DNA of 64,000 nucleotides, taken from positions 124,001 to 188,000 of the forward strand of contig JAUICM010000003.1 of the NCBI GenBank assembly GCA_030427885.1, in the 5' to 3' direction. The notes beneath the pieces are model-generated. The model ran no database searches. It saw nothing but the letters and a program-made list of their open reading frames with translations, and was not told the DNA's origin. Below, piece after piece: positions 4,538-52,060 of this stretch. The DNA comes from Rhodothermia bacterium. GTDB lineage: Bacteria; Bacteroidota; Rhodothermia; Balneolales; Balneolaceae. Position 1 is the first letter of the stretch, and each line of letters begins with the position of its first letter. The translations under genes were made by a program, and so were the position numbers.

Positions 4538-4607
4538 GGTTTTGTTGTGTATTTAAGATTGATTAACCTTAATACACCTCCGGTTCGGCTTACCCCTAAT
4601 GGATAAG

Positions 4608-7034: not shown

Positions 7035-7037
7035 TAG

Positions 7038-7124
7038 TCATTGCGAGCAAAGCGAAGCAATCTCAATGAATAGGCTTAAAAACGAGATTGCCACGTCAAT
7101 GCATTCGCATCTCCTCGCAAAGAC
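7038..7124. repeat. Imperfect extragenic palindrome between frr and smc
   Basis: The outer arms GTCATTGCGAG and CTCGCAAAGAC pair with one mismatch. Inside, GCAATCTC pairs with GAGATTGC. The whole ~87-bp unit fills most of the frr-smc gap. From memory, this CATTGCGAG...GAAGCAATCTC type of element is dispersed in many genomes of this group. It may terminate frr or stabilise its mRNA 3' end. Confidence 0.75.
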
Positions 7125-7146
7125 TTTTTTATTTTAAATCTAGCTC

Positions 7147-11774: not shown

Positions 11775-12284
11775 ATGAAAAAAAGTGAACGCGTAGCTAT
11801 TTCCATAATATTGCTTTCTATTGCCTTGCTCACATCGGTAGATATATATACCGATTATTTTGACGGGGTTGCCTGGTGGCACATCATTATAGAATCAACT
11901 ATTGCATTGTTTGCGCTTTCCGGTATTTATTATCTGATGAGGGGTCATTTTATGCTGCTAAGGAATTTTGAAAAAGAACAAGAATCCAACGCAGAACTCG
12001 AAAAAGAAGCTCTGAGGTGGAAGAAGGTCTCCCGATCATACCTAGAAGGCTTAAGTAGTGAAATTGATAAGCAACTGACTTCTTGGGGCTTAACACAAGC
12101 AGAAAAAGACGTGGCCTTTCTTCTTCTAAAAGGGCTTAGCATCAAAGAAATAGCTGATGTACGCTATACGAGTGTAAAGACCGTTCGCACCCAAACTATC
12201 GCTATTTATGCTAAGTCAGGTCTTTCAGGACGTTCTGAGCTTTCTGCTTTCTTTCTGGAAGATCTGCTACTTCCTTCCGGATGA
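11775..12284 (+). CDS. Membrane-anchored LuxR-family HTH regulator
   Basis: A 169-aa protein with two membrane segments (about residues 7-24 and 34-55), a charged coiled-coil (60-95) and a C-terminal LuxR/GerE-type helix-turn-helix (about 106-165: LTQAEKDVAFLLLKGLSIKE then SVKTVRTQTIAIYAKSGL). The DNA-binding domain would face the cytoplasm while staying tethered to the membrane. It lies 6 bp after the cytochrome b561 gene, so it may sense the redox or membrane state linked to that cytochrome. The functional link is inference from position. There is no receiver domain, so it is not a conventional two-component regulator. Confidence 0.85.
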   Translation: MKKSERVAISIILLSIALLTSVDIYTDYFDGVAWWHIIIESTIALFALSGIYYLMRGHFMLLRNFEKEQESNAELEKEALRWKKVSRSYLEGLSSEIDKQLTSWGLTQAEKDVAFLLLKGLSIKEIADVRYTSVKTVRTQTIAIYAKSGLSGRSELSAFFLEDLLLPSG

Positions 12285-33979: not shown

Positions 33980-34049
33980 ATTATTTGTAAATCAGTTGGT
34001 TGGCTGCTTACTATTCATTTTATTCAGAAAAGGATTTAAAAGGTCATTT

Positions 34050-35147
34050 ATGAAAAAACTACTCGTTTTACCCATTTTTCTAATCACGCTAACAGCATTC
34101 GCTCAGGAAACTGAAATGAGAATGGATATTGAGGAATATGAGCCAACATCCACGTTAGTTGTTCCTGAACATATAACCACTTCCACTAAATATCCTTTCA
34201 TTGATGTGCATAGCCACCTTTGGAGAATGGGCACCATGGATCTCGCACAAACAGCCCGCGAAATGGACAGCCTGAATATGGCTGTGCTTGTAAATTTGAG
34301 TGGCCGCTCCGGTGAGGAACTAAAAGCAATGGTAGATAACGCGAATAAACTTGCGCCCGGACGATTCGTGGTTTTTGCTAATATCGATTTTAATGGGATA
34401 GATGAACCCGGATGGACTGAAAATGCTGTTGCTCAGTTACAGACCGATTACGACAATGGTGCCCGAGGAGTTAAAATTTTCAAAAACCTGGGCCTCACTG
34501 TTTTGGATTCTGAAGGAAACAGAGTCCACACAGACGACACTCGAATTGATCCTGTATGGGCTAAAGCAGGGGAACTCGGAATTCCTGTTCTCATCCATAC
34601 CGGAGAACCTGCTGTATTTTGGGAACCTATTGATGAGCATAATGAACGCTGGCTGGAAATGAAGCAGTATCCGGACCGTCACCGTGGAGATACTACCCGT
34701 TACCCAAGTTGGGAAGTAATAATGCAGGAGCAGTGGAATATTTTCAAAAAACATCCTGAAACTACTTTTATTAATGCTCATTTTGGATGGATGGCTAACG
34801 ACCTTGACAGACTAGGCGAGCACTTAGATACTTACCCAAATGTGTATACAGAAATCGCAGCAATCATTGCTGAACTAGGCCGCCAACCGAGACATGCACA
34901 GGAATTTTTTATTAAATATCAGGATCGACTTCTATTCGGAAAAGACACTTATCGCCCTCATGAATATCATACTTATTTCAGGGTTTTAGAAACAGATGAT
35001 GAATATTTCGACTACTTCCGAAAACGTCACGCCTTTTGGCAAATGTATGGACTGAATTTACCTGATGAAGTGTTAAAAAAACTATACTATAAAAATGCCT
35101 TGAAGATTATTCCGGGTATTGATGAATCACTATTTCCAAACGAATAA
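34050..35147 (+). CDS. Exported amidohydrolase (TIM-barrel metal-dependent hydrolase)
   Basis: A secreted member of the amidohydrolase-2 family, about 365 aa from ATG 34050, which gives signal peptide KKLLVLPIFLITLTAFAQ. An in-frame TTG at 33996 would extend the N-terminus without benefit. The metal-binding motif is FIDVHSHLW. Later ligand-type blocks are VLIHTGEP, FINAHFGWMAND and the terminal LLFGKDTYRPH. The substrate is unknown; relatives include decarboxylases and carboxylic-acid hydrolases. A DUF2911 gene follows 17 bp later. Confidence 0.82.
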   Translation: MKKLLVLPIFLITLTAFAQETEMRMDIEEYEPTSTLVVPEHITTSTKYPFIDVHSHLWRMGTMDLAQTAREMDSLNMAVLVNLSGRSGEELKAMVDNANKLAPGRFVVFANIDFNGIDEPGWTENAVAQLQTDYDNGARGVKIFKNLGLTVLDSEGNRVHTDDTRIDPVWAKAGELGIPVLIHTGEPAVFWEPIDEHNERWLEMKQYPDRHRGDTTRYPSWEVIMQEQWNIFKKHPETTFINAHFGWMANDLDRLGEHLDTYPNVYTEIAAIIAELGRQPRHAQEFFIKYQDRLLFGKDTYRPHEYHTYFRVLETDDEYFDYFRKRHAFWQMYGLNLPDEVLKKLYYKNALKIIPGIDESLFPNE

Positions 35148-35164
35148 CCATTAAAAACAATACT

Positions 35165-35734
35165 ATGAAATTACTAACTAACTTAGGGGCAATTCTTATT
35201 TTTGGACTTCTCTTGTCCCTAGATGCAGCACAAGCACAGGAACGTGGCAAAGGAAACCGCCCTAGCCCTAACGCAACCGTAAGTCAGGATATTGGTGAAA
35301 CTACTGTTACCATTACGTATGGTCGACCAGGACTCAAAGGCAGAAGCCTGTCATCTCTCGCACCTGAAGGCCAAGTATGGAGAACAGGTGCTAATGAGTC
35401 AACTACTATTACTTTCTCCAGCGATGTAATGTTTGGGGGTGAATCTGTTCCTGCCGGAACTTATGCGCTATTCACCATACCTGGTGAAAACTGGACCTTC
35501 ATTCTTAACAGCCAGCTGATACGAAGTGAAGAAGATCCGAGACCAGCCTGGGGAGCATTTGGCTACGATGAGTCTAAAGATGTTGCTAAAGTACCTGCTG
35601 CAGTAACTACAACTGATGCTACCAATATGGAGTGGTTCACTATTTATTTCGATACTCTTTCAGATACTAAAGCTCATCTGAATCTTCATTGGGGGTCTAC
35701 TATGACAGCCATCCCAATCACTCTGAGTATGTAA
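35165..35734 (+). CDS. DUF2911 exported protein
   Basis: A 189-aa exported protein with a signal peptide (GAILIFGLLLSLDAAQAQ). The mature part matches the DUF2911 pattern: VTITYGRPGLKGRSLSSL, GQVWRTGANESTTITFSSDV, VPAGTYALFTIPG and WTFILN. The family is common in this phylum and biochemically uncharacterised. It is probably cotranscribed with the upstream amidohydrolase and is followed by a terminator. Confidence 0.88.
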   Translation: MKLLTNLGAILIFGLLLSLDAAQAQERGKGNRPSPNATVSQDIGETTVTITYGRPGLKGRSLSSLAPEGQVWRTGANESTTITFSSDVMFGGESVPAGTYALFTIPGENWTFILNSQLIRSEEDPRPAWGAFGYDESKDVAKVPAAVTTTDATNMEWFTIYFDTLSDTKAHLNLHWGSTMTAIPITLSM

Positions 35735-35787: not shown

Positions 35788-35989
35788 ATTTCAGGCAAAT
35801 GAGAAAAAAATAAGCCTGATGCCCGGTGGGTAAGTTTCCTATTTACTAATAGTTGGTCATCTATGTTTATAAGTAGGTGGGCATCAAGCTTGAGCCTAAT
35901 ATAGGCGCTGCTTTTGGAGTCCTGAAACGAATGTGATGTACTGCTTTATTTTGTGATGAGTCCGCTTGTTGAAGTGTTGAACCTCAAAA

Positions 35990-36057: not shown

Positions 36058-37542
36058 CTAGTTAGCATCCCACCACACTTTCGTTTCCAGAGCATTTACA
36101 CCTGTTGGCACACCCGTTGCTTGTACATTATCCACGTTATTACTCAGTTCAGAGAATGGATATGGATAGCGAACCGGTATAGCGCCGCTTGGAGACCGGG
36201 GATTATTCGTGATTGGGGTTAGTTCCGGATAGCCGGTTCTTCGCCAGTCGTTAAATACCTCAAGACTCAGGAAGTTTGCGATCGACTTTTGAACGATCAG
36301 ATCCTCTAATGGATCAGCAGAAGCCGCTAACAATGGCAGACCTGTGATATAGGTAGCTGCGTCAGCAGCGTCAACACCCAGTTTGTCCATGGATGCCTGA
36401 ATAGCCTCTTCATAGATCGGCTGAGCAGCGGCTGCCCCACTTGAGATCAGAGTGGCTTCAGCTTCAATGAACTTCAACTCAGCGTAGCTCATCCATGTAA
36501 GAGGAGCATCAGGATCACTGTAGAAGTTACCAATGGAGGAATAAGCCGTCGCGCCGTTACCATCCAGTCCATTTACATGACCAATGAAGGTTGTAGTATC
36601 AGGATCGTAGGTAAAACCGGCTACCAGGCCATTATTGTCAACGGCACCTGGCGCTCTTGCCTGTACTTTAAGGCGTGGATCATTCAGATTAGTGAGCATA
36701 TTCACATAGGTTGCACTTAGCTGATTCCTTGTGTCCCATTTACCATCTATGACAAACTGGAACCATGGGTTTTGCGATCCATCCTGATCATAATAAGCAA
36801 AATCAGCATCATCACTGTTATCCTGGAAACCGTTAGCCAGAGCAGTCAGTGCAGCCTGGGCTCTGGTTGCAGCAGAATTACCTGGCGCCTCACTCAAGCG
36901 CAGATTATATCTGGCTATAAGTGAATAGGCAAGTCTTTCCCACTTATCCATGTCTCCACCATATAGCAGATCATCCGTACCCGGACTGACTGGGCTTGTT
37001 TGCTGGAAATCAGCGATTGCGGCATCAAGCAGTTCGAATATCTTCCCATATACGAACTCCTGAGTATCATAAGCCGGAGTTGGATTAGTTGGATCATGTG
37101 ATTCTGTATATGGGATATCTCCCCAGAGATCTGTGAGTATTGCAAATGACCAGGCCTCAATCACTTTTGCGATCCCGGAATAGGCATAATTACCATTATT
37201 GGTTGCAAGCTCGTCCAGCTGTTTTGCGTTGTTCAGCACCTGGGCATAGGTCCAGTTCCACATGTTATTTACGTCCGCCTCGTCGTGGTCGTAGTTATCT
37301 GCAGAAGGAGCAAAGCCGGTAAATGCTGTTTGCTGTATCCAGAGCGATGTTGTTCTGGATGGCTCGTTTCCTATTACTTCGTAGCTGAATTCTCCCAGCA
37401 AAGCGGGAAGTTGCAGATTTTCTGCAACTGCTGTAGGTGAAGTAGGATCCTCGTTCACGTCGAGGAAACTATCACACGCCCATCCCAAAGCCAGGAACGT
37501 CACTACTAATACTGTTCTTGATATATATTTAATTGATTTCAT
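36058..37542 (-). CDS. SusD/RagB-family outer-membrane lipoprotein
   Basis: The surface-exposed lid of a SusCD nutrient-uptake complex. The 494-aa product has lipobox LGWAC (Cys23) followed by DSFLDVNEDPTSPT, the usual start of SusD-like lipoproteins. Helical TPR-like segments (WNWTYAQVLNNAKQLDELA, IAKVIEAWSFAILTDLWGD) and the C-terminal FNDWRRTGYPELTP are typical of the SusD-like_2 group. It lies 18 bp after susC on the same strand. The ligand (oligosaccharide or peptide) cannot be read; no glycosidase gene is adjacent. Confidence 0.93.
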   Translation of the reverse strand: MKSIKYISRTVLVVTFLALGWACDSFLDVNEDPTSPTAVAENLQLPALLGEFSYEVIGNEPSRTTSLWIQQTAFTGFAPSADNYDHDEADVNNMWNWTYAQVLNNAKQLDELATNNGNYAYSGIAKVIEAWSFAILTDLWGDIPYTESHDPTNPTPAYDTQEFVYGKIFELLDAAIADFQQTSPVSPGTDDLLYGGDMDKWERLAYSLIARYNLRLSEAPGNSAATRAQAALTALANGFQDNSDDADFAYYDQDGSQNPWFQFVIDGKWDTRNQLSATYVNMLTNLNDPRLKVQARAPGAVDNNGLVAGFTYDPDTTTFIGHVNGLDGNGATAYSSIGNFYSDPDAPLTWMSYAELKFIEAEATLISSGAAAAQPIYEEAIQASMDKLGVDAADAATYITGLPLLAASADPLEDLIVQKSIANFLSLEVFNDWRRTGYPELTPITNNPRSPSGAIPVRYPYPFSELSNNVDNVQATGVPTGVNALETKVWWDAN

Positions 37543-37560: not shown

Positions 37561-40500
37561 TTAAAATTGTAGGTTCAGGCTGACTGAGAAACTTCTGTTT
37601 CCCGGTGTAACTGCGTGGTAGAATCCCTGTGCATTACCGGTTCCGAGCAGACTGCCTTCAGGATCTTTATAGGAGAAATCACTATCGATCCACAGATTTC
37701 GGCCTGTTCCGGTGATGGTTAGTCCTTTCAATGGAACTTTAGCGAGTACACGGGCCGGTAAGCTGTATGAGAGGCTTACTTCACGTAGTTTCAGGAAGCT
37801 TCCGTCTTCCACCAGGTTCTCAAAGGCATTGGTGTAATGGCCCTGATAAAACGCCTGATCCCGAACTATTTCAACGTCATTTGGTTCACCTGTGTTTGCA
37901 TTCACACCTTCGAATACATAGGTAGATCCACGGTCAGATGTCACATCTGATGTGCCGTAGAACACACTGTAGTATTGATCGAAGTTGAGGATATCACCCC
38001 CCTGTCGTTTGTCAAGCAATGCACTTAGGGTAAACGATTTGAAGTTGATCGTACTTCTCAGGTTTGCAGTCCAGTCGGGCTGTACATTACCGATCGCACC
38101 AAGATCACCCGCAATCAATGGCAAGCCGTCATCACCTATCAAAAGCTGACCTTCCTCATTTCTGTCATAGCGGGAACCCCAGATCACGCCGTAACCGTTC
38201 TTGGTATCTTCAACACGAACCTGAATTGAGCTGAATCCTCCGAGGAAGATGTTCTCTACACCGGGAGCAAATTCAACAACTTCTGTTGTGTTTTTCGAGA
38301 AGTTCAGGTTCAGATCCCAACGGAAGCTTCTGCTTTGAATTACTGTTGCACCAGCTGATACCTCAAGACCATAGTTTTTGATCTCGCCTGCATTGGCAAG
38401 TTTGGCTGCATAACCGGTTGCATAGGAAGTTGGTACCTGAAAGATCTGATCTACGGTAGATCTGGTATAGTAAGATACATCCAGTGAACCGCGACCCTGA
38501 AAGAATCTCAGGTCCACACCTACTTCATATTCTGAAGTTGTTTCTGGTTTAAGCTCTGAGTTACCAATAACAGTACTCAAACGGTATCCGTTAACTCCAT
38601 TGTATGGATAGATGATATTCCCACGAACACCATCACCCGGATTACTCTGCAGATAAGCTGTAGCCAGAGAATACACCGGTGCATCATTACCTATCTTAGA
38701 ATAGGATGCTCTCAGTTTACCAAAAGACAGGATATTTCCATTGATACCAAATGCATCAGAAAATACAAATCCCACACTTGCAGATGGATAGAAATACGAG
38801 TTGTTGTCAACCGGAAGGGTTGAAGACCAGTCGTTTCTTGCGGTCAATGTCAGATATACCAGATTCTGATAATCTGCGGTCGCCTGACCATAGACTCCGA
38901 TCAGTCGTCGCTCTTCGATATCTTCATTCGCGGTTACGATATTCGCATTTGAGATATGGAAGAAACCCGGTGCATTGAGTCCGTTACCAAACACTTCGGT
39001 TGAAGAATAATTACGAATATTCACGTTGTTACCAACCAGAAAGTCCAGGGTGATGTCTTCTGTAAGTGCCCGTTGTCCACCCAGAGTCAGATCCGAATTG
39101 ATCTCAGTTCTGTTGATCTTCTGGTTGTACATACTTCCATCAGGAGTACCAATAGTGCCAACATTTCGCTGGCCATCCCGCTTATCAGAATAGGTATCAA
39201 TACCGATCTTCTCATTAAGCTCAAGCCAGTCAACTAGTCTCACATTCACAGATGTATTCGCTATAAAGCGGTCGACCTCGCTGTAAAAACCATTGTTATC
39301 ACTAAGCCAGTTCGGGTTATTGAACGCGGTTGTATAATTACGCTGCGTTCCATCTTCCCAGGTTGCCTGAGTTGGATCGAAGTTAATGGGAGTGAAGTTC
39401 AGTCCATACAAATATGAAGCGGCACCATTTCCTTCGCCAAGCCATTTATTATAGGTATCGATGTAGTTAACGGCGGTCTGAACATCAATACGATCACTTA
39501 GTTCCGTTGAAAAACGCGCCATCACACTGGTTCTGTTCAGCTCAGTTCCCGGAACAATACCTGACTGATCCGTATTCGCAACCGACGCATAATATGTACT
39601 TCCTGAGGTACCACCTGCAATACTTACTGAATTCGCATAGGTCATGGAAGTTTGATAGAACTCCGCTCTTGGATCATAAGTCTGGATATGATCCACACCA
39701 AGATCTGAAAGTACCTGCGCACTTACCTCGTCTTTATGAGGCCCCCAGCTTCGGGTTGTTTGCGGGTTTGTTGAAGGTGCACCTGGTTCTACATATCCAC
39801 CTCTCGACAATGGAAGGCCGTTGTAATAGTACCCATCGATACCGCCAAGATAGTCTGTTTGATATCCATCAGTAAAAGCATCAGCAGAAGTGATAGAACT
39901 TTTAATATTTACCGTAGGAGCCTGGTTTAGCTTACCATTTTTAGTGGTGATGATGATCACCCCGTTCGCTGCTCTGGAGCCATAGAGCGCCGTGGCACTT
40001 GCTCCTTTAAGAACCGACATCTCCTCAATGTTGCTCGCATCGATATCAAGCCCACGGTTAGAAGCACTACCCGTAAATAGCGGGGTAGAATTTGCATTTC
40101 CGTACACATTATCGTCTTCATCATTACTGATCGGAATACCATCCACAATAAATAATGGTTGGTTATTTCCCTGAAGTGATGCATTACCACGGATGATGAT
40201 CCTTGAGCCACCACCTGGTTGTCCATTGGAACTGTTCACCAATACACCTGCTGTTTTACCAGCTATTGAGTTCACCAGATTTGCCTCTCCTGAAACGGCG
40301 AGTTCATCTCCTGTTACTTCCTGTACCGCATAACCCAGCGATCGCTCTGAGCGCTGCATACCTAATGCTGTTACAACAACGTCTTCGAGCCCAAGGAGGT
40401 CGGCAGTCAGATTAAAGTCTCGCTGAACGGCTGCAGATCCAACCTGAACCTGTTCATTGAGTTCCTGATAGCCAACGTAAGTTACCCGGAACGTATATGT

Positions 40501-40713
40501 TCCCGGAGTAACGCCTGTTACGGTGTACTCTCCATCAGCATTTGTTGCTGCGCCTCGTCCCAGTTCCACTATAAAGATATTGGCGCCGGGTAGTGTTTCG
40601 CCTGTAGCTGCATCCAAAACCGAGCCTGAAACAGATCCGCTTTGGGCAACAGCTGCGCCACTGAATATTATACTCACTGCAAAAAGTGTGAGTAGTTGTA
40701 GCCTATTTATCAT
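37561..40713 (-). CDS. SusC/RagA-family TonB-dependent transporter
   Basis: An outer-membrane import channel of 1050 aa. A signal peptide is followed by a carboxypeptidase-D regulatory-like domain (VSGSVLDAATGETLPGANIF), a plug with the SusC signature (NQPLFIVDGIPISND near residue 190) and NAGEIKNYGLEVSAG-type barrel repeats. It ends SLNLQF with a C-terminal Phe, as in outer-membrane barrels. It pairs with susD 18 bp downstream. The LytTR regulator gene ends 144 bp upstream on the same strand, so that system is a good candidate to control it. There is no anti-sigma/FecI pair next to it. Confidence 0.94.
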   Translation of the reverse strand: MINRLQLLTLFAVSIIFSGAAVAQSGSVSGSVLDAATGETLPGANIFIVELGRGAATNADGEYTVTGVTPGTYTFRVTYVGYQELNEQVQVGSAAVQRDFNLTADLLGLEDVVVTALGMQRSERSLGYAVQEVTGDELAVSGEANLVNSIAGKTAGVLVNSSNGQPGGGSRIIIRGNASLQGNNQPLFIVDGIPISNDEDDNVYGNANSTPLFTGSASNRGLDIDASNIEEMSVLKGASATALYGSRAANGVIIITTKNGKLNQAPTVNIKSSITSADAFTDGYQTDYLGGIDGYYYNGLPLSRGGYVEPGAPSTNPQTTRSWGPHKDEVSAQVLSDLGVDHIQTYDPRAEFYQTSMTYANSVSIAGGTSGSTYYASVANTDQSGIVPGTELNRTSVMARFSTELSDRIDVQTAVNYIDTYNKWLGEGNGAASYLYGLNFTPINFDPTQATWEDGTQRNYTTAFNNPNWLSDNNGFYSEVDRFIANTSVNVRLVDWLELNEKIGIDTYSDKRDGQRNVGTIGTPDGSMYNQKINRTEINSDLTLGGQRALTEDITLDFLVGNNVNIRNYSSTEVFGNGLNAPGFFHISNANIVTANEDIEERRLIGVYGQATADYQNLVYLTLTARNDWSSTLPVDNNSYFYPSASVGFVFSDAFGINGNILSFGKLRASYSKIGNDAPVYSLATAYLQSNPGDGVRGNIIYPYNGVNGYRLSTVIGNSELKPETTSEYEVGVDLRFFQGRGSLDVSYYTRSTVDQIFQVPTSYATGYAAKLANAGEIKNYGLEVSAGATVIQSRSFRWDLNLNFSKNTTEVVEFAPGVENIFLGGFSSIQVRVEDTKNGYGVIWGSRYDRNEEGQLLIGDDGLPLIAGDLGAIGNVQPDWTANLRSTINFKSFTLSALLDKRQGGDILNFDQYYSVFYGTSDVTSDRGSTYVFEGVNANTGEPNDVEIVRDQAFYQGHYTNAFENLVEDGSFLKLREVSLSYSLPARVLAKVPLKGLTITGTGRNLWIDSDFSYKDPEGSLLGTGNAQGFYHAVTPGNRSFSVSLNLQF

Positions 40714-40857
40714 AGTTACCTCAAATCTTGTTAAATGATTTATTCGCCTGTTATGGCGAGCCAGATAACATATTAGAGGTGCTATTCTGCAGTTAAAAAG
40801 AAATGTGACGAGTAGGGTTATGGAGGGACAAACTGCTAATCTGCTGTGACAAGACTG

Positions 40858-41607
40858 CTAAAAGCTTTGGATAAGTTCTTTATAATTACGACTCATTTTA
40901 AGTTCCTCTCCATTTTTCATTATCACTTTATAGTCGCCGTACGACCACTCCTCAACGCGTTCCACATGATCCAGGTTTACGATCGTGGAACGATGGATCT
41001 GGAAAAAAGTATCTTCGTTTAATTTGCTTTTTAACCCGCTCATGGTGCTTCTTAGGAGGTGTTTCTTCTTTTCTGTCACAATATTGACATAGTTTCCGGA
41101 GGCTTCGATCCATAACACTTCACCCACTCTGATTATGTAGATATTGCCTCCACTCTTGATGATGAACCGCTCTATCAGGTGTTCAGTTTCCGTTTGCCCC
41201 TTCAATAGTTGTTCGATCTTACTTCGCATTTCCTTCTCATCATAGCTATCAAGTGACTTGCTGGCTCTCTCAACTGCTTGCATCAGGCGGGCTTTATCGA
41301 AGGGTTTGTGAATGTAATCCAGGGCATTCACTTCGAATGCTTTAACGGCATACTCGCTGAACGCTGTTACAAAGATCACCACCGGCATTTTCTCCACATC
41401 CATATTATTGAGTACATCAAAACCATTCACTTCCGGCATCTCAATATCCAGAAACAGTAATTCGGGCTGATGCTCTTCGATCGCTTCAATTGCTTCGATT
41501 CCGTTTTTACACACTCCAACCAGTTCAACCTGATCCAGTTCTCTTAGCATATAGCTCAGCCTGTCCCTTGCGTGTTGCTCATCATCAACCAGTATTGTTT
41601 TAATCAT
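40858..41607 (-). CDS. LytTR-family response regulator
   Basis: A 249-aa response regulator. The receiver domain has acidic DDE (residues 8-10), phosphoacceptor Asp54 in LFLDIEMPEVNG, FVTAF near 80 and the conserved Lys in IHKPF near 102. The C-terminal LytTR DNA-binding domain (about 145-249) reads IIRVGEVLWIEASGNYVNIV, LRSTMSGLKSKLNEDTFFQI and HRSTIVNLDHVERV. Its start overlaps the stop of the LytS-type kinase by 4 bp (ATGA). It is the third gene of a pseudokinase-kinase-regulator operon and probably controls the susCD genes just downstream. Confidence 0.95.
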   Translation of the reverse strand: MIKTILVDDEQHARDRLSYMLRELDQVELVGVCKNGIEAIEAIEEHQPELLFLDIEMPEVNGFDVLNNMDVEKMPVVIFVTAFSEYAVKAFEVNALDYIHKPFDKARLMQAVERASKSLDSYDEKEMRSKIEQLLKGQTETEHLIERFIIKSGGNIYIIRVGEVLWIEASGNYVNIVTEKKKHLLRSTMSGLKSKLNEDTFFQIHRSTIVNLDHVERVEEWSYGDYKVIMKNGEELKMSRNYKELIQSF

Positions 41608-42689
41608 AGCAGTAGATATTTTTTGGGAATGAGTATTGAAGATCTGAACCCTCCCTCTTTTCGGATACCCACATCAAGAAGTGCTCCCTGTCCAAAGTAT
41701 AACTTCAACCGCTCATCGATATTTCGGAGTCCTATACTCCAATTCGAACGCTCAGGTTTCTTTTTGGGTCCGTCACCATCATCCAGAACCTCAATCACCA
41801 ACAACTCTTCCTGAATCCTGGACCTGATGGTAACAGTGCATTTATTCATCGACTTTCCAACCCCGTGTTTGATCGAATTCTCAACCAACGGCTGGATCAG
41901 GTAACAGGGAATGCTTACCTCTTCTGTTGCCTCATCTATATCAATCTTTACCGACAGGCGGTCTTTGAACCGGGCTTTCTCAATACTAAGGTATTTCTTA
42001 AGAAAGCGAATCTCCGCCTTTATCGTACAGGAATCGGGCTGATTGGTATCGAAGGTAGTCTTGATCAGATCCTCCAGTTTCGAAACTGTATCGATGGCTT
42101 TTTTTGGATCTGTGTGGATCAGAAAATCGACCATATTCAGGGTATTGAATAGGAAATGGGGTTTTAACTGCGCCTTTAATGTTGATAATGAAGCCTGAGA
42201 AAGCTGGGCTTCCAGTTTATTGGAACGCTCTTTCAGTTCCGACAGATCTTTATAGTAGCGTTGTAATCCCGATAACACTGCTATTCCCCAATACATTAGA
42301 AAAGCCATTGATCCCGATAACAGAAGCTGTCTTTCCAGCATCTTGATGATCCGGGCCATGTCCTGCTGAAAAATATTATATCCACCCCAGGCGATAAGCA
42401 GTGATTGAAGGGTGAAAATAAATATGGCCACGAACAGTAAACCCATAAAGAAATGAGCGATCAGGTTCTTCCAGTGCCCGAATAAGGGAACCTTGACCGA
42501 GACCAAAACTACAGCCGGAAGTAACAGGGCTGGTATGATCACCATCAGCAGAGAGCGAACGATGATCCAGTGAAATTCAGAATCCTTCAGGTAATAGGCG
42601 TTCACCACTACCACAATGGTGAAGAACATCCCACCCAGCAAAATCATCATTTTACCGGCACCATCCACAAAGAGGAGCTTCTTAAGCAT
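41604..42689 (-). CDS. LytS-type membrane histidine kinase (His_kinase family)
   Basis: A 361-aa sensor kinase. Four membrane segments (about 14-34, 42-65, 74-100 and 121-141) are followed by a coiled-coil and the catalytic start LKAQLKPHFLFNTLN with phosphoacceptor His178. The N-box is PLVENSIKHGVGKS and the G-box is VLDDGDGP...WSIGLRNIDERL. I start it at 42689: AAGGAGG sits 6 bases before that ATG and the ORF's upstream ATG (42710) would add seven residues. It overlaps the upstream pseudokinase by 8 bp and the downstream regulator by 4 bp, so the three are translationally coupled. Confidence 0.93.
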   Translation of the reverse strand: MLKKLLFVDGAGKMMILLGGMFFTIVVVVNAYYLKDSEFHWIIVRSLLMVIIPALLLPAVVLVSVKVPLFGHWKNLIAHFFMGLLFVAIFIFTLQSLLIAWGGYNIFQQDMARIIKMLERQLLLSGSMAFLMYWGIAVLSGLQRYYKDLSELKERSNKLEAQLSQASLSTLKAQLKPHFLFNTLNMVDFLIHTDPKKAIDTVSKLEDLIKTTFDTNQPDSCTIKAEIRFLKKYLSIEKARFKDRLSVKIDIDEATEEVSIPCYLIQPLVENSIKHGVGKSMNKCTVTIRSRIQEELLVIEVLDDGDGPKKKPERSNWSIGLRNIDERLKLYFGQGALLDVGIRKEGGFRSSILIPKKYLLL

Positions 42690-43815
42690 ATTCGACCTCC
42701 TTCCCTGCATTCACCAGTACGATCAATTCCAGCTTGTCGCCCGAAACAGAGTAATTCAGCCTGTGTTCTTTCGTTGAAAACCCTTCTAATAGCTGAACTA
42801 TATTCCTGACCTCATCTTCAGATTCAAGTGCTTTTAGAAGTGCATTACCATCCTGAACACCATCGATAGAAATACTCAGTGTCAGCCCGGATTCAGCTCC
42901 GGTTTTACAATGGTATCCCAGACCTCTGAAGTTTTTAGTAAAGTCTTTGTATTCACCGAAAAGTATTTTCTCCAGCAGTGGAATGAACAGGATCAATGAA
43001 GGCACTTTCTCCGAACCCGGAAATTTATCATCACCAAGATCTACTTCAAATGCTTTCTCAAGCCTGAGCTTCACCAGGTTAGCGTACATTCTGAACAACT
43101 GGGTATTCTCCGAGACAGATACTTTTTCTTCATCCATCTTATCCACCAGTTTTCGGAGGATACCGGCCATCAGTATCACCATTTGTGAGGCTTCTTCAGG
43201 GCTGTTCCCTGCCTTGGTCTTTATAAATTCTAAGTTGGGATAAATGATCTCGGGATTCAATCTCAGCTCAACTTCCTTTAACCTGGCTTTCTGAAGCTCC
43301 AGTTTAAGTTCTGATTCCCGTTCAACGATCTTTTTTTGTTCTCTGATCTTGATAAGTCCGGCTACAAGGCCCACAATGGTGATATACGCCAGAAACCTCA
43401 TTTCCAGAAAGGACATGAAATCGCCGAATATTTCCATCCAGCCAAACATGGTTCCCAGGAATATAGAGTTCATATATACCTGCCATACATTGTGAATTAC
43501 AAACACAACCAGTGCGATCCCGATATGGCCAAATATAACAGATGGTTTTAATCTGGAGAAAAACTCAGGCTTCCTTTTACTCGCCGATATCACAAGAACC
43601 ATTGCCGCTCCCAGAGGTAGAAAAGCTATCCACTCTACAGCAAATATGTAGAGGAAGCTAAAATCAAAACTTTCGGCCCCCGAAATTACCAGGCTTGTGA
43701 GTATTGCGTGATAAAAAGTAAAAATGAGTGCTGATACAGCAACTACGATATATTCAAGATACTTCTTCAACATCCCTTTGTTAGTGATGAGAATATCGTT
43801 ATTAGCTGCTTTCAT
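42682..43815 (-). CDS. Degenerate LytS-type histidine kinase (pseudokinase)
   Basis: A 377-aa membrane protein with the layout of the downstream LytS-type kinase: membrane segments near residues 20-45, 55-77, 93-111 and 138-155, then a coiled-coil and a kinase-like C-terminus. Where an active kinase has L-x-PHFLFN, this protein has LRLNPEIIYPNLEFI, so the phosphoacceptor His is Glu189. The N-box region reads FIPLLEKILFGEYKD, without the N-A/S-IKHG pattern, and I find no DxGxG G-box. The frame is intact, so this is a maintained inactive partner or sensor, not a decayed gene. It is translationally coupled to the active kinase. Confidence 0.8.
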   Translation of the reverse strand: MKAANNDILITNKGMLKKYLEYIVVAVSALIFTFYHAILTSLVISGAESFDFSFLYIFAVEWIAFLPLGAAMVLVISASKRKPEFFSRLKPSVIFGHIGIALVVFVIHNVWQVYMNSIFLGTMFGWMEIFGDFMSFLEMRFLAYITIVGLVAGLIKIREQKKIVERESELKLELQKARLKEVELRLNPEIIYPNLEFIKTKAGNSPEEASQMVILMAGILRKLVDKMDEEKVSVSENTQLFRMYANLVKLRLEKAFEVDLGDDKFPGSEKVPSLILFIPLLEKILFGEYKDFTKNFRGLGYHCKTGAESGLTLSISIDGVQDGNALLKALESEDEVRNIVQLLEGFSTKEHRLNYSVSGDKLELIVLVNAGKEVEYA

Positions 43816-43932
43816 ACCAGTATCTAAGTGATTAGCCGCTGTTTATCAGGTACGAGCCGCTATAAAACAGGGACGAAATTACACACATGGTCTACTACTT
43901 CGCCCCCGTTTTGTTGCCCTAAAGAAAAGCTT

Positions 43933-46332
43933 CTAGAATTCCCACTTCACCTGGAACAGGAAATTCGTTCCGGCCTGAGGATAATAATAATTTACGCGCT
44001 GTTCTCCACCCCAGATATAGCCGTAGGTATAACCGTTAGTTTCGTATTCTGCGTCCAGAATATTACTCACTTGTAAAGTTCCGGTGATCGCCTTTGCGAA
44101 AGCAAGTCTCGTTAGCTTGTAACTGAGCTTAATGTCATTCACTAAATATGGATCGAGAGAGCGGGCATCATCCTGGGTATTATCCAGGTATTGTCTGGAT
44201 ACATATTTGGTAGTGAGATCTCCGGTAAAGCCTCCTTTGGTATAGCTAAACACAGAATTAAAGATCACACTTGGGGAAAATGCAATATCAGTATCGCTGA
44301 ACTGGCGTTCGATCTGTCCTCCATTATCGTAATCATCGATAAACTCAGAGATCTGATCGATCTTATTTCTGCTCAGAGTGGCATTTACCGCCCAGCCGAA
44401 TTCGGGAATGAACTGATATCCTCCTTCCAGCTCCACTCCTACACGATAGCTTTTATCAACATTATCGCGGATATAAGCTCCCACATCGTTGATCTGGCCA
44501 GTCAATACTAACTGGTCTTTGTAGAACATTCCGTACAGATTAACACCTGCAAAAGCAGCTCCCATTTCTCGGCTATATCCTGCTTCCACATTATAAAGAG
44601 TTTCGGCATTCGGGCGGCTTTGAGGGGTTGAGTTTACATATTCATCTCTGGTTGGTTCCTTGCCCGCCATACCAAATGAAAGAAATGCACGCTGGCCTCT
44701 TTCATCCCGGTAAACAACCCCTGCTTTTGGATTGAAGAAGCCGAGCTTATCCGTTACATCAACTGCAACCGTTCCACCTCCAGGCTGATTATCCAAACCA
44801 AAGAAGGTATAATTGATATTTCTGTACTGCAGATCAACATACCCGTTCAGGTTCTCTCCTATCAGATACTGAAGCTTCCCATAAATATTGAGGTCCTTCT
44901 TCTCGGCATCATTGTCATAATAATTCTGCCCTGTTTCACTGTCCCCAGCGTAACGTGCCCAGATCACTTCCCCAAAATGACCGCCATCATAAATGTTATA
45001 TCCTCCACCCAGGGTGACGTTCCATGATTCTCCGGATGAATATTTTGTTGAAAAGATCCCGCCATAAAAATCATTATTCAGCCAACGTCGGCGTACCAGA
45101 TCAGAGTTAAGCTGAACAGAATTGATCCCGTAATCAACCAGTAGTTCATTGGCTTTGTATTCCTCATAATAGCCTTCTCCCTTTGTGTAATGAAGAGATG
45201 CATTGGCTGTCCAGTCATCGGTCAGACGATAGGAATAGTGCAGTTGGTAATAATCCTGACGATAGTTGTCTACCTGATTTTCATATGGATTACCTGACTT
45301 TTCAGTTCCCGCTTCATTGAAGGTTCGATCCCCTGACTCCAGCACACTTTCCTCAACTCCGTACCAGGCCTGATAGGTGATCTCTTTTCCCGAGAATACA
45401 TCCGCCTTCAACAGACTACGTTTTCCTCGTTTGCTACCGGAAAGATAAAATGAATACAGATCAGCATCTGCGCGGTCGATATATCCATCCGAGACAATCT
45501 TAGACAGACGTCCTTCGAACATCCAGCCATTTTCCATTAAGCCGGAACCCAGCATGATATTGGCTTTCCTTGTGTTGAAGGATCCAATACCTGTATTCAC
45601 TTCTGCGAATGGTTCCACTTTATTGCTGCTTGTCTGCAGATTGATGGAAGCTCCAAAAGCTCCGGCTCCGTTCGTTGACGTTCCAACTCCGCGCTGGATC
45701 TGAATATTATCAACAGAAGAAGCGATATCAGGCAGATCCACCCAAAATACTCCGTGCGATTCGGCATCATTTACCGGAATTCCGTTAATGGTCACATTGA
45801 TTCGTGCCGGATCAACGCCCCGGATTCTGATACCAGTGTATCCCACACCTGCACCTGCATCCGAAGTGGTTACCACCGATGGTGTATTCCTCAACAAGTA
45901 TGGAACATCCTGACCCAGATTTTTCTCCCCGATCTCAGACTTTGTGATATTGGTGTATGAAAATGGTGTGGCATCATCCACCCTGGTAGCTTCCACAAAA
46001 GCCGCATCACTGATATATGTTTCCGGCTCAAGAAATATCCTCATGTCAGTATTATCAACGGGAATCTCGATCTCTTTGGATCTATATCCCAGAAAGTTGA
46101 TCTGAATTCTTCGCGGAGCTCCTTCTTTAAGTGTATATGAAAATTTCCCGTCGCCATCGGTAACAGCTCCGCTGGAAGTATTCATCTGTTTGATGGTAGC
46201 TCCGGCCAGTGGCTCTTTGTTTTGGACATCAAGAACAGTACCAGAAATAGTCTGTGCCTGTATCTTAATAGATGATAGTAAAGTTAAAAAAACTGCAAAA
46301 AGCAGTGTGGAATTGAATGTTTTTGAGAACAT
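43933..46332 (-). CDS. TonB-dependent outer-membrane receptor under TPP riboswitch control (probable thiamin receptor)
   Basis: An outer-membrane receptor of 799 aa. A signal peptide (LLFAVFLTLLSSIKIQAQ) precedes a carboxypeptidase-D-like domain (ISGTVLDVQNKEPLAGATIK), a plug (IRIRGVDPARINVTINGIPV, IQIQRGVGTSTNGAGAFG) and a beta-barrel ending NFLFQVKWEF. It lacks the SusC signature and a SusD partner. A TPP riboswitch lies about 80 bases upstream on the same strand, so the receptor most likely imports thiamin or a precursor; receptors with this regulation are known in Bacteroidota. GGAGG is 4 bases before the ATG and is predicted to be masked when TPP is bound. Confidence 0.93.
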   Translation of the reverse strand: MFSKTFNSTLLFAVFLTLLSSIKIQAQTISGTVLDVQNKEPLAGATIKQMNTSSGAVTDGDGKFSYTLKEGAPRRIQINFLGYRSKEIEIPVDNTDMRIFLEPETYISDAAFVEATRVDDATPFSYTNITKSEIGEKNLGQDVPYLLRNTPSVVTTSDAGAGVGYTGIRIRGVDPARINVTINGIPVNDAESHGVFWVDLPDIASSVDNIQIQRGVGTSTNGAGAFGASINLQTSSNKVEPFAEVNTGIGSFNTRKANIMLGSGLMENGWMFEGRLSKIVSDGYIDRADADLYSFYLSGSKRGKRSLLKADVFSGKEITYQAWYGVEESVLESGDRTFNEAGTEKSGNPYENQVDNYRQDYYQLHYSYRLTDDWTANASLHYTKGEGYYEEYKANELLVDYGINSVQLNSDLVRRRWLNNDFYGGIFSTKYSSGESWNVTLGGGYNIYDGGHFGEVIWARYAGDSETGQNYYDNDAEKKDLNIYGKLQYLIGENLNGYVDLQYRNINYTFFGLDNQPGGGTVAVDVTDKLGFFNPKAGVVYRDERGQRAFLSFGMAGKEPTRDEYVNSTPQSRPNAETLYNVEAGYSREMGAAFAGVNLYGMFYKDQLVLTGQINDVGAYIRDNVDKSYRVGVELEGGYQFIPEFGWAVNATLSRNKIDQISEFIDDYDNGGQIERQFSDTDIAFSPSVIFNSVFSYTKGGFTGDLTTKYVSRQYLDNTQDDARSLDPYLVNDIKLSYKLTRLAFAKAITGTLQVSNILDAEYETNGYTYGYIWGGEQRVNYYYPQAGTNFLFQVKWEF

Positions 46333-47448: not shown

Positions 47449-47525
47449 GTTCGCTTATTACGCTTCTTTTCATATTGATTTCACAAAACTGCGTATCTTT
47501 TCGCCTTATCAACCCAATAAAGACT

Positions 47526-48800
47526 ATGAACCGAATATCAACTTCACTTTTTACACTTTCCCTGCTTGTACTTCTTAGTGCCTGTAGTGGAAATAGCTCT
47601 AATGAATCACAGCTTTCAACTGACATCACCGCTGCAGATGTTACCGAACATATTACATTTTTGTCTTCTGATGAGCTCAAAGGCCGTGAGGCCGGAACCG
47701 CTGATGAAGCCAAAGCAGCTAACTATATAGCGGATTATTTCAGAGATTTTGGGCTAGAGCCGGCAGGTAACGGCCAAACCTATTTCCAGGAATTCACCAT
47801 AAATACCTCAGTGCTCAATAACCCTCATTCTACTGATACTACCGGGGAGAAAAGACTATCAAAAAACGTAGCCGCTCTGCTCCAGGGAACCGGAGATTCT
47901 GATGAGTTTATCATTATTGGTGCTCACTACGATCACCTGGGTTATGGCAAATTTGGTTCGCTTTATCGTGGTGAGGAACTCCGAATTCACAACGGAGCTG
48001 ATGATAATGCCTCCGGAACCACCGGGCTTCTGGAACTTGCTCAGTATTTTTCATCTAATCGTCCTGAAACTGATATTCTGTTTCTTGCTTTCTCTGGCGA
48101 AGAAATGGGACTACTTGGATCTGCACACTATGCTGATAACCCGACGGTAGATCTCAGTAATGCTCTTGCTATGATCAATATGGATATGATCGGCAGAATG
48201 AGTGATAATAAACTCATGATCTTTGGAATGGGAACAGCTGAGAACTGGACCGATATCATGAACGCTGCAAATACGGACTCTCTGGATCTGAACCTGGTTA
48301 AAGATGGAACCGGCTCCAGCGACCACACAAGTTTCTATTATAAAAGTATTCCGGTACTGCATTATTTCACTGATACCCACTCTGATTACCACCGGCCATC
48401 GGATGATGCAGACTACATTAACGCGGAGGGAGAAGTTCTTGCTTTGAACCATCTCGTTCGTGTGGTAGAACAACTCGATGCATTGAATCAGGATCAGCTT
48501 GTATTTACTGAGGCACCAAGTGAACAACGCCAGAGCATGAGACTGGATGGCCCAACCTTAGGTGTACTTCCTGATTATGGATATGATGGCAAAGGAATGA
48601 AGATCACCGGAACCAATGCTGGTGGAGCTGCTGCAAATGCCGGACTTATAGGTGGCGATGTCATTGTTGCCATTGGAGACATGGAACTCGAAGACATCTA
48701 TGGATATATGGGAGCGCTGAACAAGCTTAAAAAAGGCCAACTTACCACTATTACAGTTCTTCGGGATGGAAACCGAATTACTATGGATCTTCAGCTTTAA
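47526..48800 (+). CDS. M28-family zinc peptidase with PDZ domain, lipoprotein
   Basis: About 424 aa from ATG 47526, which gives a lipoprotein signal ending LLSAC; an upstream in-frame start at 47475 adds 17 residues before it. The M28 metal-binding residues are visible: IIIGAHYDHLG (His), HNGADDNASGT (bridging Asp), FSGEEMGLLGS (Glu-Glu), INMDMIGRM (Asp) and a final His in the DTHSDYHRPSDD block. A C-terminal PDZ domain follows (about 330-424, GGAAANAGLIGGDVIVAIGD). It probably cleaves peptides at the cell envelope as an aminopeptidase. It stands alone between two palindromic spacers. Confidence 0.92.
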   Translation: MNRISTSLFTLSLLVLLSACSGNSSNESQLSTDITAADVTEHITFLSSDELKGREAGTADEAKAANYIADYFRDFGLEPAGNGQTYFQEFTINTSVLNNPHSTDTTGEKRLSKNVAALLQGTGDSDEFIIIGAHYDHLGYGKFGSLYRGEELRIHNGADDNASGTTGLLELAQYFSSNRPETDILFLAFSGEEMGLLGSAHYADNPTVDLSNALAMINMDMIGRMSDNKLMIFGMGTAENWTDIMNAANTDSLDLNLVKDGTGSSDHTSFYYKSIPVLHYFTDTHSDYHRPSDDADYINAEGEVLALNHLVRVVEQLDALNQDQLVFTEAPSEQRQSMRLDGPTLGVLPDYGYDGKGMKITGTNAGGAAANAGLIGGDVIVAIGDMELEDIYGYMGALNKLKKGQLTTITVLRDGNRITMDLQL

Positions 48801-49049: not shown

Positions 49050-49568
49050 ATGAATTTCAAACCCCTTATCTTTTCTCTTATTCTTTTCAGCTCATGTACC
49101 TTTCAAAAAGAATTGGTTTATGATGATCTGCAGCCGAGGGCTGTTCCACAAAAAACCTTGACCTATCCGGAAGCAAAAAGTATGTACGATTCCTTTCCCG
49201 AACAGGCTAAACAAATGCTTTCTGAGCGCAACATGCAATGGAGTGATCCTATGCTTCAATGTGATCCAGAGTCCAGTTTCTTCCCATTTTTGGAAGAGGG
49301 CGTATTGGCATTGGAGAAAAAGGTAGGATACCCACAAGAAGCCCGTTATAATAGGGAGAATGGGATAGTGAGAGTAATCTACACCATTGATAGTCTGGGT
49401 GTACCCGGAGACTACAGAATTATGCAAAACCCTTCGCCAAGTTTGAGCAGGGCTGTACTGGAAGCTCTGGATGACAGCTTTTATGTCCCTGGGTTCTGTA
49501 ATGGACAACCTACTGCGGTTGTCCATAATTACTCGTTCGTATTTCAGGCTTTTATTATTAGCCGCTAA
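49050..49568 (+). CDS. Lipoprotein with TonB C-terminal-like domain
   Basis: About 172 aa from ATG 49050, giving signal NFKPLIFSLILFSSC with a lipobox Cys. The C-terminal half resembles a TonB_C domain: VGYPQEARYNRENGIVRVIY, IDSLGVPGDYRIMQNPSPSL and SRAVLEALDDSFYVPGFCNG. As a lipoprotein it lacks the usual membrane anchor and proline-rich arm of TonB, so it is probably a standalone TonB_C-like envelope protein rather than a working energy transducer. Its last 4 bases overlap the end of the convergent M14 peptidase gene. Confidence 0.75.
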   Translation: MNFKPLIFSLILFSSCTFQKELVYDDLQPRAVPQKTLTYPEAKSMYDSFPEQAKQMLSERNMQWSDPMLQCDPESSFFPFLEEGVLALEKKVGYPQEARYNRENGIVRVIYTIDSLGVPGDYRIMQNPSPSLSRAVLEALDDSFYVPGFCNGQPTAVVHNYSFVFQAFIISR

Positions 49569-52060
49569 TTCCCTACAAAGAATACCGCGTTTCCGAACAG
49601 TAGTTTTCCGTTGTGCCAGAATCCTCTGAACAGCGGATTATCGATCATGTATACTACGTGACCTCTGCCCATATCCTGAACGCCATAGGAAAGCGAGCCT
49701 TCGATCGTGTCCTGAGCATTAGCCCCAACGAAGCCACTTCGTGGGGTTCCATCACGGGCTACACCAACGTTCCATCCATCCGACAGATATTCATAGGATG
49801 TGGAACCTAACTTCAGGGACATGTAAGATTCATCATATCCAAAAGCCAGTGGATGAGTTATATCCATTTGAAGTTCATAAACTGCGCCGGGATTAGAGTT
49901 GGTAGTCGATTCACGTCCGGCTGTGTCATATTTTCTGAGTCTGGAATCCATGCTTTCATCATCAGAACCTTCGCGGGATTTTCTGGATAGGTTAAAGCCA
50001 TCTTTTCCTGCTAAAAATCCATTCGCACGATCCAGAGCGATCAGCGTTCCCCCACCTCTTATCCAGCTTTTCAGATCATCCAGTCCGGAACCCCCAAATG
50101 CATCGCTATACGATCCTGATGGCATGATCATAACATCAAAATCATCCCAATTCAGATAATTCAGATCATCCAAATTCACCAGTGTGATCGGATACTCGAT
50201 CTGTTGATCAAAATAATGCCATACAAACCCAACGGCATTGCTGCTGGTACCATCACCAGCAATCAGTCCGACCCTCGGAATATCAATTAAGCTTACTGAT
50301 GATGACCCGAAATCCTTTCCGCTATCAACAAAACCTGTTGCAACCGGAGTAACTTCTCGGTTCAACAGGTCAGCCGCATCTTCTACAATGCGGTCGAAAT
50401 CACTTCCCAGTTTCTCATTTCCGTTCCTTGTAATCACCAGTGTACCTGCAGCATAGCTGCTTCCATTGATACTAAATCCTTCGTCAGCGAAACGTGGACG
50501 AACACCGTTTCTCAAAAGCTTAGCTAAGAATTTCAGGTCATCCATTGAATTCCACTTAGCTAGATAGGCATAGGGCTTTTCAATATTAACCGGAAGAGAT
50601 GCTTCTGTATCGAGGGAAACACCATTGGTTTCGATCTCGCCGGACAGGGCATATCCATCCACTCCGAATGCATAATGTGCTTCCCATGCAGTGATGTCGT
50701 AGGTCATAGAATCGGCTAATTCAGGCTTTGGCTCAAACAATACTCTTACCAGATTACCCTGTGGCTGACGTGTACTTATCACGAAATCGCCTTTCTCGAT
50801 GCGAACTCTTTCGGTCTGTCCATTTGAAAAATTATACCCGTTCGGGTTGCTGTTATTCGCAGCCTCGCGAACCATAATATTCTGATCCAGCAAATAACGC
50901 ATCAATTGAGCCGTTTTATCAGGATTGCTGCTCTTTTTTACCACAAATGTCTTGTAGTTCCCCGATCCATTGGTTCGTGCATCACTGAAATACTTTGCGA
51001 ATTCTGATATCACTTTTTCTGCATTTTTAGCAGTGATCTCAACCGTTGACAGCCCTGTTGTTGAATGATGTAACAGGCGATCATACAAACTCAGTGTATC
51101 TCCCTGAGCTGTTTGAACTCCAAGACCAACGCCACCAGCCTGCTCGTAGGTCATGCCAATAGCTCCATTGTAGGTTGGCCAGGTGTCCCCATAACTAGGG
51201 TAGAACAAATCAAATACTTCTTTAGTAAAATAGAGCCAGTTATTTTCATCAAAGTATTTGGCGTGGTTCTTACCGATCTGAGTCTGAAATTCTCTTTGCC
51301 ATTCCGAGATCACATTGTGAAATGGTTTTGCTGCCGGAGCGAAATAGTAGGGTGAATTATATCCCTGTTCGTGAAAATCGACATGTACCTGGGGCATCCA
51401 TTCCATATAGGCTTCAATTCTCTGCTGGCTTTCGATCTGTGTCTGCCATGCCCAATCACGATTCAAATCAAAATAGTAGTGATTGGTTCTTCCTCCAGGC
51501 CAGGGCTGACTGTGTTCTCTGGCTTCCGGGTGTGCATCAAACTGAGCACCCGTAACAGAGCGATTCCAGTTCACATACCGGTCACGTCCGTCCGGATTGA
51601 TCATCGGATCCATGATCACAACCACATCATCAAGCCAAGCGGTTTTGTTAGTAACTAATTCATAGATCGTATAAAGAGCTGCTTCGCTGGAAGAGGTCTC
51701 GTCGCCATGAACATTATAACTCAGCCAGACAATTGGTTTTTGATTTGGCGTGGGATCACCTGCCTCAAAGCCAACCAGCTTTAAATTATTAGATCTGATC
51801 TCATCAATATTAGTCTGGTTTTCTTCGGAGGTCACAACTACATAAACCAGTTCACGTCCCTCGTAGGTTTTACCATACTCCTGGAATGTAACCAGATCCG
51901 AATTCTCAGCCACATGTTTGAAGTAGTTTTCAACTTTGTAGTGAGGTGTCCACTGCTCTCCCAGTTCATATCCCAGAAACTCAGCTGGTGACTGAAGTTG
52001 AGCGTTTGTGTTTACGCTGAGAAAAAGGATGAATAGTAATAATGTGATACTCTGCTTCAT
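49565..52060 (-). CDS. M14-family zinc carboxypeptidase
   Basis: A large (831 aa) secreted carboxypeptidase-like enzyme with a signal peptide (TLLLFILFLSVNTNAQ). The catalytic zinc site is visible: HGDE (His118, Glu121), INPDGRDRY (substrate-binding Arg), FDLNRDW, HVDFHEQG (His230) and MTYEQAGG (catalytic Glu306). The C-terminal half (from ~400) resembles a class-I glutamine-amidotransferase-like domain (VGLIAGDGTSSNAVGFVWHY, DDLKSWIRGGGTLIALD), common in this M14 subgroup. It is 70 bp downstream of the NTF2-like gene and is convergent with the TonB_C lipoprotein gene. Confidence 0.92.
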   Translation of the reverse strand: MKQSITLLLFILFLSVNTNAQLQSPAEFLGYELGEQWTPHYKVENYFKHVAENSDLVTFQEYGKTYEGRELVYVVVTSEENQTNIDEIRSNNLKLVGFEAGDPTPNQKPIVWLSYNVHGDETSSSEAALYTIYELVTNKTAWLDDVVVIMDPMINPDGRDRYVNWNRSVTGAQFDAHPEAREHSQPWPGGRTNHYYFDLNRDWAWQTQIESQQRIEAYMEWMPQVHVDFHEQGYNSPYYFAPAAKPFHNVISEWQREFQTQIGKNHAKYFDENNWLYFTKEVFDLFYPSYGDTWPTYNGAIGMTYEQAGGVGLGVQTAQGDTLSLYDRLLHHSTTGLSTVEITAKNAEKVISEFAKYFSDARTNGSGNYKTFVVKKSSNPDKTAQLMRYLLDQNIMVREAANNSNPNGYNFSNGQTERVRIEKGDFVISTRQPQGNLVRVLFEPKPELADSMTYDITAWEAHYAFGVDGYALSGEIETNGVSLDTEASLPVNIEKPYAYLAKWNSMDDLKFLAKLLRNGVRPRFADEGFSINGSSYAAGTLVITRNGNEKLGSDFDRIVEDAADLLNREVTPVATGFVDSGKDFGSSSVSLIDIPRVGLIAGDGTSSNAVGFVWHYFDQQIEYPITLVNLDDLNYLNWDDFDVMIMPSGSYSDAFGGSGLDDLKSWIRGGGTLIALDRANGFLAGKDGFNLSRKSREGSDDESMDSRLRKYDTAGRESTTNSNPGAVYELQMDITHPLAFGYDESYMSLKLGSTSYEYLSDGWNVGVARDGTPRSGFVGANAQDTIEGSLSYGVQDMGRGHVVYMIDNPLFRGFWHNGKLLFGNAVFFVGN

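Follow-up and report, generated by a model that had tools for sequence, protein, structure and literature searches.

Histidine pseudokinases are few, and most of them are known one by one. The closest described precedent for the locus reported here is FasBC-FasA of group A Streptococcus, in which, according to the passages of PMC12675982 on this system, two sensor-kinase-like proteins are encoded together with a ComE-like family regulator and heterodimerise in a two-hybrid test; its authors propose that FasC is a sensing pseudokinase and that FasB supplies the kinase domain (PMC12675982). Also in group A Streptococcus, the membrane pseudokinase RocA is described as interacting with the active sensor kinase CovS and altering its activity (PMC7028121), and in Caulobacter the histidine pseudokinase DivL controls an active kinase (PMC4211667, PMC5361649). 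LytS-type kinases paired with LytTR regulators control transporters in Escherichia coli, as described for BtsS/BtsR and YpdA/YpdB (PMC5552118, PMC10653868). No LytS or LytTR pseudokinase was found described in the open-access literature, where absence is weak evidence, and in two open-access papers naming LytTR, SusC and SusD, the passages on LytTR describe no regulator of the kind reported below.

The locus was found in a 64,000-nucleotide stretch of DNA (the window), on the minus strand of which a LytS-type pseudokinase (PSK), a LytS-type histidine kinase (KIN), a REC-LytTR response regulator, SusC and SusD are encoded in this order. PSK (gene 1, 42682-43815, 377 aa) was assigned by Pfam and alignment, followed by KIN (gene 2, 41604-42689, 361 aa) and the regulator (gene 3, 40858-41607, 249 aa, phosphoacceptor Asp54). 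In an ORF check all three frames were open at these coordinates, and the overlaps of 8 bp between PSK and KIN and 4 bp between KIN and the regulator were exactly those given in the original prediction. The ATG of KIN at 42689 is preceded by AGGAGG, while the longest KIN ORF begins at 42710. A sigma-70 scan gave nothing useful. The next genes encode a SusC/RagA-type TonB-dependent transporter (37561-40713, minus strand, 1050 aa; TIGR04056, 564 bits) and then a SusD-like lipoprotein (36058-37542, minus strand, 494 aa; PF12771, 254 bits), which form a SusCD/RagAB pair and are the proposed targets of the system.

KIN has the features of a LytS-type kinase, with its own predicted membrane helices, a PF06580 match of 79 bits, a weak HATPase match (19.5 bits, under the cut-off), a PHFLFN motif carrying His178, an N-box (VEN271) and a GLRNI glycine box; His178, N271, G320 and N323 were invariant in all ten members of the family described below. 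The regulator contains PF00072 and PF04397, and its phosphoacceptor Asp in the FxDxxMP motif was recognised by pattern in 7/10 members and was seen in the sequences of the remaining three.

PSK has the layout of the same protein type, with about four predicted membrane helices, a DHp-like region and an eroded C-terminal domain, but the kinase chemistry is lost. Pfam returned PF06580 (His_kinase) at 37 bits and no ATPase match. Glu189, preceded by P188, aligns with the phosphoacceptor His of kinases, and the N-box Asn and the Gly boxes are missing, so that the original description of two adjacent LytS-type membrane proteins, the second intact and the first without these elements, was borne out. 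In the ten PSKs the phosphoacceptor column holds Glu in five, Asp in three, Tyr in one (L040), Ala in one and His in none. Relatives in which the first gene keeps the His, which would have spoken against the original prediction, were thus absent from the family; of the His-to-Glu change that it had noted, the loss of His was general (10/10) but the replacement by Glu was found only in half of the members. Since Asp, Tyr and Ala also occur at this position, Glu as a phosphomimic was rejected as a general rule. In the same alignment His was kept in 9/9 partner kinases and in 67/67 other LytS-type proteins, which are the best matches of these searches and not a random sample, and among the four PF06580 proteins found in the window's own genome PSK alone is without His. 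With kinase homology, no catalytic residues and ten intact frames, PSK is classified, like DivL, RocA and FasC, as a histidine pseudokinase and not as an active histidine kinase.

The profile alignment of PSK to KIN (hhalign, 99.7% probability, 14% identity) spans 348 columns, indicating that the two are homologous end to end and that PSK retains the full extent of a LytS-type protein, with its catalytic part eroded. NCBIfam and PHROGs held no family matching PSK, and a profile search of solved structures gave a single weak kinase chain (6swj, 39.9 bits). The structure prediction was poor for PSK (pLDDT 54) and weak for KIN (pLDDT 68.5), probably owing to the input of just three sequences, and with the poor PSK model Foldseek returned nothing at E ≤0.001, its best rows being histidine-kinase fragments at 2.5e-3; no conclusion on structure is drawn from it.

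To search related genomes for adjacent LytS-type pairs had been suggested with the original prediction, and a PSK search of 97 such genomes followed by reading of the neighbourhoods gave nine further PSK-KIN-LytTR operons, so that the pair does occur outside this genome and a single-strain oddity was rejected. These are the loci L034-L041 (genomes G023, G033, G005, G018, G034, G051, G058 and G011) and the divergent L042 (G069), and with the window the ten loci span three families of one order. The gene order was identical in 10/10, with intergenic spacings of -11 to +3 bp between PSK and KIN and -29 to +15 bp between KIN and the regulator. When 128 genomes of the order were searched, strong matches to PSK (E ≤1e-125) were observed in nine genomes and strong KIN matches (at least 458 bits, the next being 274) were confined to the same nine, each of the nine KINs having an adjacent PSK; these score gaps arise partly by construction, since the loci in question supplied the sequences for the models; the loci had been found by a single-protein search. 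G069 falls below the strong-match limits. Its PSK, found at 37.3 bits, diverges strongly and cannot be aligned with certainty, and when it was used as query the window PSK was the first match after itself. No further PSK was observed among the loci fetched from the wider searches (244 genomes of the class and 392 of the phylum), and a plasmid collection gave a single 26% match. The distribution of the operon is patchy, and G034 and G051 are labelled as the same genus while their PSKs fall in different clades, which suggests that the operon may have been transferred whole.

From the computed anatomy, conservation pattern, co-occurrence, linkage and repeats we infer, with moderate confidence, a duplicated LytS-type kinase whose copies have split the labour, PSK sensing, KIN catalysing and the regulator controlling SusCD and its own operon. 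After a tandem duplication, PSK would have kept (or gained) a membrane sensing site and the DHp-like dimerisation helices while losing the phosphoacceptor and the ATP-binding boxes, and KIN would have kept the catalytic function while constraint on its sensing site relaxed. Both would be made in step and probably act as a PSK-KIN heterodimer, in which PSK would detect a membrane or periplasmic signal, possibly one related to what the linked SusCD pump takes up, and would turn KIN on or off. With both the His and the ATP site missing from PSK, such a 1:1 heterodimer could be phosphorylated only in cis, on KIN. The kinase would then phosphorylate the LytTR regulator, which is predicted to bind 9-bp repeats before susC and before its own operon.

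The division of labour is suggested by where the two proteins are conserved. In the membrane domain of PSK, E61, H97, D132 and R140 were invariant (10/10), H108 was present in 10/10 or 9/10 depending on the alignment, and Q112 in 9/10, whereas in the membrane domain of KIN no residue was found in 10/10 and, among the polar ones, H79 alone reached 9/10. The cytoplasmic part reverses this contrast, with 29 invariant residues in KIN and six in PSK. The simplest reading of these sequences is that a sensing site was kept in PSK and freed from constraint in KIN, which supports the proposal that PSK is a ligand sensor, since its invariant polar membrane residues have no counterpart in KIN. In the 67 other LytS-type proteins, E61 (7, with 31 gaps), Q112 (6, 24 gaps), D132 (8, 23 gaps) and R140 (5, 21 gaps) are rare. 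The H97 column holds His in 30 of them (21 gaps) and the H108 column in 20 (22 gaps), and this part of the PSK membrane conservation is common to ordinary LytS proteins.

The same membrane residues bear on the alternative that PSK is an inhibitory partner, similar to RetS, in which KIN would be a complete homodimeric sensor kinase and PSK would block it by drawing it into unproductive heterodimers until PSK is removed by a second signal. The membrane helices of KIN and its full set of catalytic boxes would suit this, and RetS-GacS is a published case of one kinase blocking another, as outlined in PMC4866733; but invariant membrane residues are observed in PSK and none in KIN, and the tight gene spacing favours a constant 1:1 supply over a separately regulated inhibitor, and we regard this alternative as rather unlikely.

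The conservation within PSK itself bears on a second alternative. The mean pairwise identity was highest in the DHp-like region (0.32), as expected of a dimer interface, followed by the membrane domain (0.23) and the C-terminal part (0.18), while in KIN the DHp (0.44) and catalytic (0.39) regions led. If PSK acted allosterically, for which DivL would serve as the model, its C-terminal remnant would bind, in place of ATP, the regulator, a metabolite or a protein and would tune phosphotransfer or phosphatase activity rather than sense at the membrane. Invariant E282, P272 and L330 in this remnant, together with strands and helices that are still predicted there, would be in line with such a role, and DivL is presented as a repurposed kinase in PMC4211667; the remnant is nevertheless the least conserved region of PSK, and an allosteric role of this kind appears quite improbable, more so than inhibition. 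The division of sensing and catalysis between PSK and KIN is the preferred reading.

In each of the six pairs compared, third codon positions differed most, first positions less and second positions least, for PSK and KIN alike (for PSK of the window and G023, third 0.67, first 0.42 and second 0.32). Together with the intact frames and the tight spacing, this bias supports the original view that the inactive copy is maintained and made in step with the active one. The view of PSK as a functionless duplicate in decay, which its faster evolution might suggest (42-46% identity to the window copy in the three nearest relatives, vs 52-53% for KIN), is largely refuted and scarcely credible: all ten frames are intact across three families, the gene order is conserved, some residues are invariant, differences are biased to the third codon position, and each of the nine KINs found in the 128 genomes lies beside a PSK.

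The distances among PSKs and among KINs are strongly correlated (r 0.967, with 0/5000 label shuffles as high), and each correlates with the distances among the regulators at r 0.88. Because common descent alone gives high values, the PSK-KIN correlation is taken as joint inheritance rather than contact. In a free tree of 87 rows, in which long branches are in play, the PSKs and the G069 protein were separated from every protein that has the His (SH-aLRT 99) and PSK was not the sister of KIN; when 44 of these rows were analysed, a topology uniting PSK and KIN in one clade was not rejected and even had the higher likelihood (p-AU 0.63). A search with the PSK membrane domain in the 392 phylum genomes returned the nine known loci sampled there and a weak match in G435 (39.7 bits). 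The latter belongs to a LytS-LytTR pair of the ordinary kind, with a single kinase that has the His and no SusCD in the 19.5 kb fetched. Among non-members, the G435 protein also had the top score with the PSK profile (149 bits); its score with the KIN profile was higher still (287 bits), as expected of a working kinase. Its likeness to PSK would fit, but does not prove, duplication of one such kinase.

The control of susCD put forward in the original prediction is supported both by linkage and by repeats of LytTR type that precede susC. In 7/10 loci (window, L035, L036, L037, L039, L040 and L042) the operon has SusC and SusD genes beside it, upstream in L040 and downstream in the other six, and no SusCD was found within the 19.5-kb stretches fetched for L034, L038 and L041. 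Control LytS-LytTR loci had SusC in 0/20, as judged by a match to three query SusCs; a SusD match lay at the contig start in L144, and a weak TonB-receptor match in L156 (51 bits) was not counted as SusC. The controls were drawn from the non-PSK matches of the 97-genome search, came from seven of the ten genomes, left out at least two more such matches and included three stretches cut by contig ends. The Fisher p-value was 6e-5 (7/10 vs 0/20), or 4e-4 if L144 is counted, both values being rough because the loci are related. The SusD type is PF12771 in the window, L037 and L039, and PF07980 in L035, L036, L040 and L042. It is possible, and is proposed more tentatively than the division of labour itself, that the locus represents a duplication-split kinase with sensing-only and catalysis-only subunits in an obligate, cis-only heterodimer, inherited as a module that retained its LytTR-type repeats while it was joined to different SusCD pumps (PF12771 in some loci, PF07980 in others).

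Published LytTR sites are described in passages of PMC4847170 as pairs of 9-11 nt repeats that lie 11-13 nt apart and have no common sequence. Before susC, three direct repeats on the minus strand (40804-40853), 21 and 20 bp apart, are proposed as LytTR sites, namely CTTGTCACA (40845-40853), TTTGTCCCT (40824-40832) and CTCGTCACA (40804-40812). Three weaker direct repeats before PSK (43827-43877, minus strand), 21 bp apart, are proposed as autoregulatory LytTR sites, namely TTCGTCCCT (43869-43877), CTCGTACCT (43848-43856) and CTAATCACT (43827-43835). The repeats are 9 bp long with spacers of 11-12 bp, which would fit the published spacing, and similar pairs were observed before PSK or susC in most relatives. 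In the 220 kb of the window and L034-L041, 14 pairs scored at least 16/18 with a consensus from the same promoters, 11 of them before PSK or susC, while shuffles gave 0-1. Compared with GC-matched random stretches, 14/16 promoter regions had p <0.05, the exceptions being susC of L035 (p 0.058) and PSK of L039 (p 0.37); these p-values are optimistic because the consensus was read by eye from the promoters themselves. A strict form of the pattern gave 3 matches in the 4.15 Mb genome against 2 for the reversed control and is therefore no regulon finder; its value is that two of the three genome matches are the susC promoter.

The ten loci make up a small family that provides natural replicates, in which the pseudokinase always has the same partner and the promoters offer a likely read-out. 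They are well suited to asking how a kinase without activity of its own can govern an active one. Because PSK is without both the His and the ATP site, the pair would allow a clean test of cis phosphorylation, and also of whether sensing and catalysis are separable between the halves of a kinase dimer. The PSK-KIN-LytTR arrangement further suggests a type of regulator for SusCD pumps that was not found in the passages of open-access literature consulted.

Among the known systems, rocA is located apart from covRS, DivL has a Tyr in place of the His, and to our knowledge BtsS/BtsR and YpdA/YpdB have one kinase each and no pseudokinase partner. The Tyr of DivL is matched here by the L040 PSK alone. 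DivL differs in belonging to another kinase family and in its cell-cycle role (PMC4211667, PMC5361649). RocA still has a His (H246, dispensable), its regulator is CovR, and no SusCD pump appears in the account of the system in PMC7028121. The original prediction knew of no described system of this kind linked to SusCD; FasBC-FasA does follow the same logic, but in the passages of PMC12675982 it is without SusCD. It is a Gram-positive system that controls the FasX sRNA, and it is likened to the present locus by description. FasC keeps a required H246 (PMC12675982), whereas PSK has Glu, Asp, Tyr or Ala in its place (10/10) and no ATP boxes. What the two systems share is two kinase-like proteins and one regulator per operon, as in 10/10 loci here. 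Since PSK is without the His that FasC requires, the locus is probably FasBC-like in its working but is not counted as a member of FasBC-FasA.

Directly upstream of the LytS-type pseudokinase gene, a gene encoding a TonB-dependent receptor is located on the minus strand (window 43933-46332), and this receptor may be a member of the regulon of the pseudokinase-kinase-LytTR operon. Close relatives of it adjoin the operon in two related loci of other genomes of the order, L034 (locus positions 4177-6600, 1213 bits) and L036 (10561-12972, 1236 bits); in L035 the receptor next to the operon is less closely related. In the most divergent copy of the operon (L042, genome G069, 2743-10483, minus strand), the gene order pseudokinase, kinase, LytTR regulator, SusC, SusD was unchanged, and the His position of the pseudokinase was occupied by Ala (PALLL).

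A further repeat pair of the same kind as those before susC and the pseudokinase gene (CTCATCACA, TACATCACA, 20 bp apart) was observed on the minus strand at window 35932-35960, between the susD 3' end and the convergent DUF2911 gene, which together with an amidohydrolase (PF04909) gene, likewise convergent with susD, occupies window 33996-35734 (plus strand). In L034, no SusC follows the regulator despite a LytTR-like repeat pair directly 3' of the regulator stop codon (12095-12123, plus strand), which is possibly a relic of a lost susC promoter. Outside the susC promoter, the sole match to the strict repeat pattern in the window's genome was L110 (G000:C8:196690-196716), adjoining a gene that we take, from its motifs, to resemble a DNA cytosine methyltransferase.

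Near the operon and susCD, genes encoding peptidase M28 (window 47475-48800) and peptidase M14 (window 49565-52060) were present, and none of the five neighbour genes scanned there encoded a glycoside hydrolase. In the control locus L156 (8265-12506, minus strand), a single LytS-LytTR pair has a TonB-dependent receptor gene directly upstream; this receptor is a different one, and the same genome also carries the pseudokinase operon.
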